From Nitrospira sp. (GTDB lineage: Bacteria > Nitrospirota > Nitrospiria > Nitrospirales > Nitrospiraceae), in NCBI GenBank assembly GCA_016873495.1, contig VGXC01000017.1, positions 1-64,000 of the forward strand: a stretch of DNA of 64,000 nt. The letters are read 5' to 3'. Made by a program: the position numbers and the translations under genes. Of the stretch, positions 59,351 through 64,000 are shown piece after piece. The stretch's first letter is position 1. Every line of letters starts with the position of its first letter. The notes under the pieces were generated by a model. It worked only from the letters and a program-made list of their open reading frames with translations, ran no database searches and was not told the DNA's origin.

Positions 59351-60799
59351 CTATGCCAGGTCATGGAGCTTCATTAAGTTGGTCCCGCCGGGCTGGCCTA
59401 TGCGCGTTCCAGACAGGATCACGATCCGTTGCCCCGCGGTCGCGAGGCCCTCGGCCTTCAGACGACGCTCTGCCTCCTCCACACGCTCGTCTGTCTGGTC
59501 GATCTGCCGCATGGTGTGGGGGATCACCCCCCAGTAGAGCGCCATTCGCTGCAGGACGCGCTCGAACGGCGTAAAGGCGATGATCGGGGCGACCGGACGC
59601 TGCTTCGACATCAGCAACGCCGTCATCCCCAACTCGCTGAATGCCACGATCGCGCTGGCCCCAATCGCGGAAGCCGCCGCAGAAGCCGAGGTGCAGATCG
59701 CTTCAGGAGAAGAGACCTCCGGGCGGCCCCTCGCGGGCCATCCGGCTGCGGCGTTGAGCGTGCTTTCCGGCTGGGGACTGTGCATGGCCGCGGCCTCGGC
59801 CGCCCGCACGATCCGGTCCATGACGCGCACGGTTTCAACCGGATAATGCCCGACGGCCGTTTCGCCGGACAGCATCACGGCGTCCGTTCCATCGAACACC
59901 GCATTGGCGACATCGGAGGCTTCCGCTCTGGTCGGCTTCGGCTGCTGGGTCATGGATTCCAACATCTGCGTCGCCGTGATCACGAGGCGGCGGCGGCGAT
60001 TGGCGTCCGCGATGATCCGTTTCTGCAGGATCGGCACGGCCTCGGGGCTCATCTCGACGCCCAGATCGCCCCGCGCGATCATGACGCCTTCCGCCTCGGC
60101 GAGGATCGCCTCCAGGTGATCCATCGCTTCGGGCCGCTCGATCTTGGCGATTACCGGCACGTCGCCCCCCCAGGCGGCGATCAACCGCTTGGCCTCGGTC
60201 ACATCTTCCGGCCCTCTGACGAACGACAACGCCACATAGTCCACGCCTTGCGTCACGCCGAACCGGAGATCCATCCGGTCCTTGTCGCTCAGGGTCGGGG
60301 CACTGACACAGGTGCCGGGCAGGTTGATCCCCTTGTGCGACGCGATCCGTCCTCCGGTGAGGACCTTGCATTCCACCGCCTCACCGGACACGACGGTAAC
60401 CACCAACTCGATCAGCCCATCGTCGATCAGAATGCGGGCGCCGGATTTGACATCCCGAGCCAGATTTTCATACGTGACCGGGATGTCCTCTCCCGCCGGT
60501 GTGGCATGGGCGTGCTCGGCTACCAGGCGCACGGTCTGGCCCGAAACCACGTCCACTCCGCCGTCGACCATCGCCCCGACGCGGATACGGGGTCCCTGCA
60601 GATCCTGAATGATCGCGACCACGACGCGTCGACGACCGGCCGCTTCACGGATCGCCTTGATGGCGCGACCGTGTGATTCGTGGGTGCCATGAGAAAAATT
60701 CAGCCGGGCCACGTCCATGCCGCTCTCGATGAGGCGGTCCAAGACCTCGGGAGAATCGCTGGCAGGACCGATCGTGCAGACAATTTTGGCTTTTCGCAT
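59351..60799 (-). CDS. pyk: Pyruvate kinase
   Basis: 482 residues. N-terminal MRKAKIVCTIGPASDSP, barrel motifs ARLNFSHG and KIERPEAMDHL (catalytic Lys and Glu), ARGDLGVE, and the C-terminal allosteric domain. Transfers phosphate from PEP to ADP. It lies downstream of the phosphofructokinase fusion on the same strand, a glycolytic pair. Confidence 0.96.
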   Translation of the reverse strand: MRKAKIVCTIGPASDSPEVLDRLIESGMDVARLNFSHGTHESHGRAIKAIREAAGRRRVVVAIIQDLQGPRIRVGAMVDGGVDVVSGQTVRLVAEHAHATPAGEDIPVTYENLARDVKSGARILIDDGLIELVVTVVSGEAVECKVLTGGRIASHKGINLPGTCVSAPTLSDKDRMDLRFGVTQGVDYVALSFVRGPEDVTEAKRLIAAWGGDVPVIAKIERPEAMDHLEAILAEAEGVMIARGDLGVEMSPEAVPILQKRIIADANRRRRLVITATQMLESMTQQPKPTRAEASDVANAVFDGTDAVMLSGETAVGHYPVETVRVMDRIVRAAEAAAMHSPQPESTLNAAAGWPARGRPEVSSPEAICTSASAAASAIGASAIVAFSELGMTALLMSKQRPVAPIIAFTPFERVLQRMALYWGVIPHTMRQIDQTDERVEEAERRLKAEGLATAGQRIVILSGTRIGQPGGTNLMKLHDLA

Positions 60800-60957: not shown

Positions 60958-63273
60958 CTATGGGAGGTCGTTGCCGTGCATCTGGGCGAAGACCTCCCAA
61001 TCGAACGGCTTGGGCGCCACCGCGTGGAGAGGGATCGGTTCGACGGTCCCGGGTTCGCGATAGGCGACCATACACCCCACGACGTGATCGGGACGTTCGA
61101 CCAAACGACGGATCGTCTCGTAAGCGAGGTGTTGTGCGATGGCCTTGTCTTCCGGCACCGGAGGCGCGCCCCTCAGGGTGTGGCCCAGGATTGTCGCCTT
61201 GGTCGCCGGCGCCAGAGGGTAGCAACCGGGCTTGGCCTGAAACTGCGGCCATTTGGCGATCGTGCCGCCGACGTAGTCCACAAGCCCGTGGACGCCCCCA
61301 TCCCGATGATGGCGATGAGGGGTCTGTTCGGCCACCACGAAAAAATGGCTTTTGTTCGACACGCCCAAGGTCTGCTTGAGCGTACCCAGGATGACCTCAT
61401 CGATGTACGCGTCGGGGTCGGGATACTCGTTGACCAGCACCCCCTCGGCCCTCGCTTGGTACGCGCAGGCCAACGCGAGGTGACCAGACCCCGCCCCCAT
61501 AATTTCGATGAAGAACACGCTGCCCATGGCCGAGCTGGTCGCCTTCAGCGACTCGATGGATTGATTCGCCAGCGCCACGGCGGAATGAAAGCCCAACGAC
61601 GTCGTGCCGGCAAGATTGTTGTCGATCGTCCCGGGGAGCCCCACAACCTGGACGCCGAATTGCTCATAGAGAGCGCGCGCGCCGCGAAGGCTTCCGTCGC
61701 CGCCGATGACAACCAGAGCGCCGTCCCGCATATAGGGCGTGAGATGCCGTATGGTCGCCTGCTGAACACGCTCGTCCTTAAAGTCTTCGAAACGGCTGCT
61801 GCCGATCGGGGAACTCGCATGGCTCCCCATTCCTCTGGTGTCCTCTCCGGTCACGGCTTCGATCCAGTTGTTGGCCAGCCCCAGGAACCCGTGACGCACG
61901 AAGTGCACCTCGAGGCCCAGCCTGGTTCCCGTCACGTGCAGCTCTTTCAACGCCGCGCCGGCGCCGGCGAAGTCGCCGCCCGATACCAACGCCACGATCC
62001 GCTTGATTTGGCGAGGCTTCAGCGTCACCCGATCCCGTCGTTCGCGTTCGACCGTTACCCAAGCGTCTCGCGTCGCCCGCTCCCGTTCCGACAGCCCCAC
62101 CGCCGTCGAATACCCGGACAAGAGGCCGTGCTCGAAGGCCAGGTGGACCACGTTATCCTGCCCTTCCTTATATTCACCGAACTCCGTGAAGGCCTCGCGA
62201 AACGGCCGAGAATCCAGAAAAATCATGAGCGCCCGCAGCGTGGAGCTGTGGGTATACAAACACACGACCTTCCCCTGATGCGACCGGCCCATTTGATGGA
62301 ATCCGTCGATCACGTCGATGTAGAGATCGAAGTACGAGTGGCCGCCGGGGTAACTATAGAGCGGATGCTTGATCAGACGCTTGGCCGTCTTCACGTCCAC
62401 ACCGAACGCCTTGGCTGCTTCCTCGGCCTCCGCCTGCTTCTCCAGCCCGGTGACCCAGCCGAAGTCCTGCGATTCCAACGCCGTCTCGACGAACGGTTGG
62501 ACGGCCACGGCCTGGTCCGGCACCAGCGCGGCAATCACTCGCTCGCACAGTTGCCTCGTATTGGGGCTCCGGCTGACCAGATGGACGAACGTCCTCGGAT
62601 CGAGGTAATTGTGAAGATGCAGGAAGTCGAGTTGTTGCGCGACCACGCCGACCATCCTGGCGAGCGAGGCGCCGACCGCGTCGGCCTTCGGGATCCCCTG
62701 GGCGGGATCCAGCACGTTGGCGAGGCGCCGACCGACTCGAAACGTTTTGCTCTCCACGCGCGACACCCCATGTCGCATCGTGAAGAGGAGCGTTCGATCC
62801 GTCAGGTCGCGGGGTAACAGCCAGAACCGGTTATCCCCGAGGTCCAGGACGATGCGCCCCTCCACCAGTTGCGGGGTCAAGTGCTCGCGCGGCACGATCG
62901 CGACCGGACGGCGGTGGGTCGGCTTCTGCACCGTCGCGATCGGCATGCGAAACAGCGGCGCGAGGTCTCCTTCCGCAAGGAGCCGGTTCCAGGCGACGAA
63001 AAAAACGAGTTCGTCGCCCCCGCACCCCTCGTCGATCAGGGCCCGGCGCGCATCCCGATACGCCCGTGCGTCCGGAAACCCGGCTTGCGCACGCTGGGCG
63101 AACGCTCGAATCTTCACCATGGCGTCTTGAGCCAGCCGCGCGCGATCGACCGAGGCAGCCGGGAGCGGAGGCGAAACGATCTCTCCATCGAGCACACGGC
63201 GAGCGAGACCCTCCCCATAGGCCACCAAGCCTTCCACGGTCACGAAGTCTAGCTTGTCCGCGTCGGGTTCCAT
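60958..63273 (-). CDS. Histidine-phosphatase / phosphofructokinase-like fusion
   Basis: 771 residues. Residues ~90-400 have the histidine phosphatase (phosphoglycerate-mutase) fold: FTMRHG (R167, H168), VETALESQDFGW and CLYTHSSTLRAL (H342). Residues ~425-771 are PFK-like: VSGGDFAG, GGDGS (524-528) and PGTIDNN (547-553). Gly in both key sites predicts ATP rather than PPi. Compared from memory with E. coli PfkA, Arg162 and Arg171 align to Ser and Ala (IEIMGA) and Asp129 to Asn. The substrate may therefore differ from fructose 6-phosphate. AAGG lies before ATG 63273. Confidence 0.85.
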   Translation of the reverse strand: MEPDADKLDFVTVEGLVAYGEGLARRVLDGEIVSPPLPAASVDRARLAQDAMVKIRAFAQRAQAGFPDARAYRDARRALIDEGCGGDELVFFVAWNRLLAEGDLAPLFRMPIATVQKPTHRRPVAIVPREHLTPQLVEGRIVLDLGDNRFWLLPRDLTDRTLLFTMRHGVSRVESKTFRVGRRLANVLDPAQGIPKADAVGASLARMVGVVAQQLDFLHLHNYLDPRTFVHLVSRSPNTRQLCERVIAALVPDQAVAVQPFVETALESQDFGWVTGLEKQAEAEEAAKAFGVDVKTAKRLIKHPLYSYPGGHSYFDLYIDVIDGFHQMGRSHQGKVVCLYTHSSTLRALMIFLDSRPFREAFTEFGEYKEGQDNVVHLAFEHGLLSGYSTAVGLSERERATRDAWVTVERERRDRVTLKPRQIKRIVALVSGGDFAGAGAALKELHVTGTRLGLEVHFVRHGFLGLANNWIEAVTGEDTRGMGSHASSPIGSSRFEDFKDERVQQATIRHLTPYMRDGALVVIGGDGSLRGARALYEQFGVQVVGLPGTIDNNLAGTTSLGFHSAVALANQSIESLKATSSAMGSVFFIEIMGAGSGHLALACAYQARAEGVLVNEYPDPDAYIDEVILGTLKQTLGVSNKSHFFVVAEQTPHRHHRDGGVHGLVDYVGGTIAKWPQFQAKPGCYPLAPATKATILGHTLRGAPPVPEDKAIAQHLAYETIRRLVERPDHVVGCMVAYREPGTVEPIPLHAVAPKPFDWEVFAQMHGNDLP

Positions 63274-63394: not shown

Positions 63395-64000
63395 TTAGGC
63401 TTCCGGACCCAGCATCTTCTCCGGCTTGACGAGCGAATCGAATTCCTCGCCGGAGAGAAAGCCCAGGGCCAGGCAGGCCTCGCGCAGCGTGGTCCGTTCC
63501 TCGTAGGCCTTCTTGGCGACCTTCGCCGCCTTGTCGTAGCCGATCTTGGGATTGAGGGCCGTGACCAGCATCAGGGAATTGGTCACGCTCTTGTGAATCT
63601 GCGCCACATCCGGCTCGAGACCGACCGCGCAATGCTCCGTGAAAGAGCGGCAACTGTCCGCCAACAACCGGATCGAGTGCAGCAGGTTATGGATGATCAC
63701 CGGCTTGAAGACGTTCAGTTCGAAGTTGCCCTGGCTGCCGGCCATGGAGATGGCCGTATCGTTTCCGATCACCTGCACGCAGACCATCGTCATCGCTTCG
63801 CTCTGGGTCGGGTTCACCTTCCCCGGCATGATCGAGGACCCCGGCTCGTTGGCCGGCAGGATCAGCTCGGCCAGGCCGCAGCGCGGGCCTGAGCCCAGCC
63901 AGCGAATGTCGTTGGCAATCTTCATCAGGGAGCAAGCCAGAGTCTTCAACGCCCCGCTGGCCATGACCAGGGCATCGTGCCCGGCCAGCGCAGCGAATTT
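63395..64000 (-). CDS. fumC: Class II fumarate hydratase, C-terminal part (runs off window)
   Basis: The last 201 residues: the lyase signature [13 protein letters not shown], catalytic-region [19 protein letters not shown] and a normal C-terminal domain ([18 protein letters not shown]). FumC interconverts fumarate and malate in the TCA cycle. The 5' end lies beyond 64000. Confidence 0.93.

Follow-up and report, generated by a model that had tools for sequence, protein, structure and literature searches.

A lineage-wide fusion of a histidine-phosphatase-like domain and a phosphofructokinase with an altered substrate pocket in Nitrospira

Bacteria of the genus Nitrospira are among the most widespread nitrite oxidizers and include complete ammonia oxidizers. 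A gene carried by one of them raises the question of what a phosphofructokinase (PFK) does when residues of its sugar-phosphate pocket have been exchanged and an additional domain precedes it in the same chain. The gene lies in a 64,000-nucleotide stretch of Nitrospira sp. DNA (contig VGXC01000017.1 of assembly GCA_016873495.1, positions 1 to 64,000), hereafter called the window. Genome papers describe Nitrospira glycolysis as complete (PMC8115632, PMC7078480). For no fewer than ten genomes, this claim would hang on the candidate enzyme described here.

The open reading frame occupies positions 60958–63273 of the reverse strand and encodes 771 amino acids, with its ATG at 63271–63273 and its stop codon at 60958–60960 (Table 1). 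The C-terminal half is recognized by the Pfam profile PF00365 over residues 425–722 (E = 1.1e-54, 186 bits against a cut-off of 30.9), and its predicted fold matches PFK structures 2pfk and 1pfk in Foldseek searches (E of about 1e-18, TMt 0.73). Residues 1–420 give no match above a curated profile cut-off; the histidine phosphatase profile PF00300 stays below its own (E = 0.0023, 18.0 bits, cut-off 21.7). Among 46 family members, however, 44 match the profile of histidine phosphatase branch 1 at E ≤ 1, the lowest value being 5.6e-6, and profile–profile comparison by hhalign with twelve genuine histidine phosphatases yields E = 5e-5 and a probability of 67%. Moreover, a predicted structure of residues 1–418 (pLDDT 82, pTM 0.84) retrieves PFKFB, phosphoglycerate mutases, TIGAR and CobC with Foldseek E values of 3e-7 to 3e-5. 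These results bear out the initial annotation, which had proposed a PFK domain fused to a histidine phosphatase: the protein consists of a phosphatase-like domain followed by a PfkA-type PFK, and the latter carries fixed substitutions.

Table 1 Features of the fusion gene and its neighbours in the window
Feature	Position	Strand	Basis
Fusion gene, 771 amino acids and stop	60958..63273	-	Open reading frame; relatives in 69 Nitrospirota loci, mostly full length
N-terminal helical region, residues 1-120, without known family	62914..63273	-	AF2 helices 13-25, 44-62, 69-83, 88-100
Histidine-phosphatase-like domain, residues 121-415	62029..62913	-	His_Phos_1 in relatives, hhalign, Foldseek
RHGVS 167-171, nucleophile His168 and Arg167, invariant	62761..62775	-	Alignment
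SxSPNT 234-239; expected second phosphate Arg at variable residue 240 (R/E/T)	62557..62574	-	Alignment, hhalign
[ED]SQDFGW 267-273; catalytic Glu column is Ser268	62455..62475	-	Alignments
YPGG[HN]S[FY] 308-314, counterpart of (Y)P.GGES of PGM/FBPase-2, Glu replaced by His/Asn	62332..62352	-	Alignments
[TS]HSSTLR 341-347, second active-site His342, invariant	62233..62253	-	Alignments
PFK domain, residues 421-771	60961..62013	-	PF00365 E = 1.1e-54; Foldseek to E. coli PFK
GSSRF, Arg494 (= E. coli Arg72), invariant	61789..61803	-	Alignment
GGDGS, ATP-type donor signature: Asp526 = Asp103, Gly527 = Gly104	61690..61704	-	Alignment
PGTIDNN: base Asp551 (= Asp127) kept, Asn553 replaces Asp129	61615..61635	-	Alignment
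MGS 583-585: Gly584/Ser585 at R/T-switch positions 161/162	61519..61527	-	Alignment
MGA 592-594: Ala594 replaces Arg171	61492..61500	-	Alignment
TKATILGHTLR: Lys692 (= Arg243), His698 (= His249), Arg701 (= Arg252)	61171..61203	-	Alignment
Pyruvate kinase, 158 bp downstream of fusion, conserved neighbour	59351..60799	-	PF00224 E = 1.4e-118
fumC (class II fumarase, truncated at the window end), 121 bp upstream of fusion	63395..64000	-	TIGR00979

An artefact, in which annotation or a sequencing error joined two genes, is already refuted by the intact full-length frames found in dozens of independent genomes, including the complete chromosomes of Nitrospira defluvii and N. moscoviensis. The frameshifts or gaps in copies from metagenome-assembled genomes (loci L018, L050, L061, L065 and L068) are what could be cited in its favour. 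The defects in L068 (4941–7318), L061, L018 and L050, such as that of Candidatus Manganitrophus GAC4 near residue 433, are probably sequence errors. Locus L065 had been considered a lone N-terminal domain, but the truncation is caused by an assembly gap of N.

Of the 137 Nitrospiria genomes sampled, about 84 carry the fusion; in the remaining Nitrospirota classes, matches were confined to the PFK domain and no full-length fusion was seen. Its relatives come solely from Nitrospirota-type genomes, including two contigs labelled Nitrospinota and Nitrosospira, as judged by a contig scan whose patterns derive from one sequence and which could miss relatives beyond the class. Plasmid searches returned ordinary PFKs only, and our literature search found no published mention of the fusion. 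In a phylogenetic tree, eleven fusion PFK domains fall on the side of the ATP-PFKs as a single clade (support 100/100), whose stem is the longest of the tree (3.45 changes per column). The fusion is a real, lineage-wide and uncharacterized variant of the PfkA superfamily.

Residues were assigned by sequence alignment with 26 other PFKs, that of E. coli included. The equivalents of the catalytic base Asp127 (Asp551) and of Asp103 (Asp526) are invariant in 58 relatives, and those of Arg72, Glu222, His249 and Arg252 are also kept. A review by Compton and Patrick gives GGDG and a glycine in place of Lys124 as criteria for ATP-type enzymes (PMC12203962). The donor positions of the fusion, Gly104 within GGDG, glycine at 124 and Gly108, are of this type, whereas the markers of pyrophosphate (PPi)-dependent PFKs are Asp104 (GGDD) and Lys124 (PKTID). 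The ATP-type nucleotide site, from which the initial annotation predicted ATP use, is supported.

Conservation of this kind also bears on whether the PFK domain is catalytic at all. The joint loss of Arg162, Arg171 and Asp129, together with a pyruvate kinase gene that often adjoins, could indicate that the domain has become a sensor or regulator of pyruvate kinase. We consider this very improbable, because Asp127, Asp103, Arg72 and the donor loops are unchanged throughout the 58 relatives. In muscle PFK, by contrast, the C-terminal half that serves regulation has a serine aligned with Asp127.

The sugar-phosphate pocket is changed in a consistent manner. Asp129 is replaced by Asn553 and Arg171 by Ala594, with the same residues in all 58 relatives, and Arg162 is replaced by Ser585 (Ser in 55 relatives, Thr in 3). 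Among the 26 other PFKs, by comparison, Asp129 occurs in 26, Arg162 in 24 and Arg171 in 23 (His in the other 3). These three exchanges had been noticed before, and they prove to be fixed in the family: the pocket arginines are absent at 162 and 171 and present at 72 and 252. Beyond these previously noted changes, Arg243 is Lys692 in the fusion family, Asn17 of ordinary bacterial PFKs is Gly, 20 near-universal PFK positions are altered, and 81 positions are invariant in the family yet rare in other PFKs. Lysine at 243 is uninformative by itself, since an ordinary Bacillus PFK has it too. Three of the four ligands of the 6-phosphate are still basic (Lys, His and Arg). We make no claim about pocket geometry because the mapping is by sequence and the predicted loops are unreliable, with pLDDT values below 50 at residues 550–555, 592–595 and 693–701.

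Position 162 also bears on regulation. In the R state, Arg162 of the neighbouring subunit is one of four ligands of the phosphate of fructose 6-phosphate (F6P), and Glu161 takes its place in the T state (PMC12203962). The fusion has Gly-Ser at 161–162, and thus the textbook R/T switch cannot operate in that form. Furthermore, the equivalents of Arg25, Arg54, Arg211 and Lys213, basic residues that we take to be part of the ADP/PEP effector site, are not conserved; Lys641 was considered as a retained effector-site lysine, but a fuller alignment places Asn640 there. As judged from the alignment, the textbook bacterial control, comprising Arg162 with residue 161 and most of the effector site, has most likely been lost.

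These departures also place the protein outside the usual definitions of its class. The motif P(G/K)TIDXD reads PGTIDNN in the fusion, F6P ligands 162, 171 and 243 are Ser, Ala and Lys, and scores remain below the NCBIfam cut-offs for ATP-PFKs (TIGR02482, 167.9 bits against 371; PRK03202, 182.8 against 253). Because of the motif and these scores, filing the fusion as an ordinary ATP-dependent 6-phosphofructokinase requires an assay, although it could well turn out to behave as such an enzyme.

Strong purifying selection acts to the same degree on the two domains (dN/dS of about 0.1). In close relatives the phosphatase domain shows dN near 0.10 while dS is about 1 or higher, which indicates that it is not drifting, and the PFK domain is almost equal; the N-terminal helical region is less conserved (dN 0.20–0.42). 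A domain that evolved fast, as its stem reveals, and then stayed tightly conserved suggests a changed function or a changed control. One form that a changed function could take is kinase activity on another phosphosugar, such as sedoheptulose 7-phosphate. The concerted fixation of R162S, R171A, D129N and R243K, the 81 family-specific invariant residues and the long stem would fit such a shift, as would the fact that a PPi-type PFK or a PfkB-type kinase coexists in most of the genomes. However, a glycolytic substrate is favoured over an exotic one by the linkage to pyruvate kinase described below and by the basic residues kept at three of the four positions that bind the 6-phosphate. In ten genomes, moreover, no other 6-phosphofructokinase candidate was found, so we regard a different phosphosugar as unlikely. 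The initial annotation had raised a possibly new reaction. It was right that this is not an ordinary PFK, and a new reaction is possible, but the gene context is not in its favour.

A pyruvate kinase gene, a neighbour that the initial annotation had not pointed out, lies within the flanks of 55 of the 69 fusion loci, in co-directional, divergent or convergent orientation. Two pyruvate kinases that are only 35–38% identical share this place, whereas the fusions beside them are orthologous and about 65–75% identical (compared in the window, 59351–60799, and at loci L019, L030, L035, L038, L042, L044, L059, L065 and L070). Association in three orientations and with two non-orthologous partners argues for a glycolytic role. 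Also consistent with this role is the fact that pyruvate kinase, usually as its sole copy, adjoins the fusion in 15 of the 17 genomes in which the fusion is the only PfkA-type PFK. Among the loci compared, fumC is near the fusion in the window only; another genome of the genus (G053; L157 152–3139, G053:C6) has fumC directly beside pyruvate kinase and lacks the fusion, which represents presence or absence of a single gene at a syntenic position. Barstar-like genes and ribonuclease-like genes of the barnase type recur in the flanks of about 32 loci (for example, L016 3306–3926 and L014 4091–4729).

In ten fusion genomes, no further PfkA-type PFK and no PfkB-type kinase above cut-off was found, which leaves the fusion as their sole 6-phosphofructokinase candidate. 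A search of 35 genomes for KDPG aldolase of the Entner–Doudoroff pathway found none, and thus this bypass is not available. Glycogen phosphorylase occurs in 81 of 84 fusion genomes compared with 33 of 50 others (Fisher p = 3e-6, a value that ignores shared ancestry). In addition, streamlined genomes devoid of any PFK also lack pyruvate kinase, in agreement with the PFK absence published for Great Lakes Nitrospira (PMC9239080).

Other observations weaken the case for F6P. A second PFK of about 420–470 amino acids with the PPi signature (GGDD, PKTIDND) exists in most Nitrospira genomes (L113–L118), including most of those with the fusion. The window's genome has a PfkB-type kinase above the TIGR03168 cut-off, so that the sole-candidate argument rests on the ten genomes; the proposal that the fusion is the only F6P kinase of the window's genome holds for the PfkA superfamily alone. 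The F6P step is thus often covered otherwise. Moreover, the joint loss of Arg162, Arg171 and Asp129 with 20 near-universal changes could signal another substrate, and the structure model is of low confidence at the very loops that form the pocket. Five genomes (G270, G292, G304, G308 and G212; 90–99% complete) retain pyruvate kinase with no PfkA-superfamily PFK and no PfkB-type kinase above cut-off.

PfkB-type kinases are also present in four genomes of the window's family that lack the fusion, and none was found in the tested genomes that have the PPi-signature PFK. At L154 (3–935) and L156 (1044–2009) the PfkB-type gene is followed by one for a two-domain universal-stress-like protein, an arrangement reminiscent of the mycobacterial dormancy regulon, in which PfkB is likewise paired with a universal stress protein.

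The N-terminal domain shares the fold of FBPase-2 (1fbt, TMt 0.68 at 20% identity), including the two active-site histidines. If it is an active phosphatase, the protein could be bifunctional, with the N-terminal domain hydrolysing the PFK product or a regulatory sugar bisphosphate and so setting the direction of flux. Invariant His168, Arg167 and His342, an evolutionary rate as slow as that of the PFK domain and closest folds among PFKFB, phosphoglycerate mutases and TIGAR are in keeping with this arrangement. By contrast, the catalytic Glu column is Ser268 in four alignments (Ser in 57 of 58 sequences), the second phosphate arginine falls on residue 240, where no more than about half of the sequences carry Arg, and the glutamate of GGES has become His or Asn. 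The domain is not devoid of acids, as had been considered: residue 267, beside the Glu column, is acidic in 57 of 58 sequences, Asp270 is invariant, and Glu/Asp267 might stand in for the missing glutamate. From the motifs, phosphatase activity is uncertain, and the domain could represent either an atypical enzyme of this type or a relic that binds ligands. Since, in addition, G000 and all tested fusion genomes encode a distinct class I FBPase, we consider bifunctionality somewhat unlikely. The same FBPase disposes of the idea that the fusion supplies a missing FBPase for gluconeogenesis.

A more specific proposal, that the fusion is an independent bacterial counterpart of PFK-2/FBPase-2 in which the kinase makes and the phosphatase breaks a regulatory sugar bisphosphate controlling pyruvate kinase or class I FBPase, appears quite improbable. 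A likeness to the eukaryotic fructose-2,6-bisphosphate switch had been suggested for this locus. The resemblance to FBPase-2 in fold and in the YPGG.SY segment is real, though other phosphoglycerate-mutase-like folds are resembled equally, but there is no sign of a fructose-2,6-bisphosphate-like switch: the catalytic Glu and the second Arg are missing, and class I FBPase is separate.

We propose, with a probability of roughly one-half (about 0.48), that the fusion works as an ATP-dependent kinase of sugar phosphates within the PfkA superfamily, that it most likely remains an F6P 1-kinase for glycolysis or glycogen breakdown, and that control has probably passed to the phosphatase-like domain. 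The enzyme would phosphorylate F6P with ATP, alongside pyruvate kinase, during the use of stored glycogen. The equivalents of Arg252, His249 and Lys243 would hold the distal phosphate, and that of Asp127 would deprotonate the acceptor. With the classic allosteric machinery gone, a replacement regulator is most naturally sought in the N-terminal domain, which could act on the kinase by sensing sugar phosphates or through weak or atypical phosphatase activity. The invariant catalytic and donor residues, the pyruvate kinase linkage, the co-occurrence with glycogen phosphorylase and the strong purifying selection on both domains all point in this direction. Domain architecture, substitutions, selection and gene linkage are observed, whereas kinase activity, its substrate and regulation by the N-terminal domain are inferred.

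The usual place of the fusion beside pyruvate kinase suggests that an early step of sugar breakdown is controlled or executed in an unusual way. The fusion is a natural and fixed PFK that lacks Arg162, a core residue of the textbook R/T switch, and in which a new domain is a candidate regulator. Sugar-phosphate binding and control in a PFK that has lost the switch can therefore be tested on it.

The PFK domain resembles E. coli PfkA and Geobacillus stearothermophilus PFK in its fold, its GGDG and PGTID motifs and its Asp127, Asp103, Arg72, Glu222, His249 and Arg252 equivalents. It differs from bacterial ATP-PFKs by Ser at Arg162, Ala at Arg171, Asn at Asp129, Lys at Arg243, Gly at Asn17 and Gly at 161, by a largely lost effector site and by an N-terminal extension of 420 residues. 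PPi-dependent PFKs belong to the same superfamily, but they carry GGDD and PKTID where the fusion has GGDG and PGTID. With histidine phosphatases of branch 1 (phosphoglycerate mutase, TIGAR, CobC and PhoE), the N-terminal domain shares the RHG motif, the second His within its LRA context and the fold; it is distinguished by the missing canonical Glu and second Arg, by GG[HN]S in place of GGES, by its helical extension and by the fusion to PFK.

PFKFB is similar in that a kinase and a phosphoglycerate-mutase-like phosphatase domain occupy one chain, in the YPGG.SY segment and in its place among the best PDB folds. However, its kinase is a P-loop PFK-2 kinase, the domain order is reversed, and its catalytic Glu and second Arg are not conserved in the fusion. 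A Pfam profile search of the fusion found no P-loop 6-phosphofructo-2-kinase domain, and its kinase half is PF00365. The fusion is thus not a PFKFB, because its kinase half comes from another superfamily and its phosphatase half is without two defining catalytic residues. A precedent for the addition of an N-terminal domain from another enzyme family is provided by yeast PFK, which carries an extra glyoxalase-like domain (PMC12203962), although that domain is a different one and precedes a duplicated PFK of the eukaryotic type.
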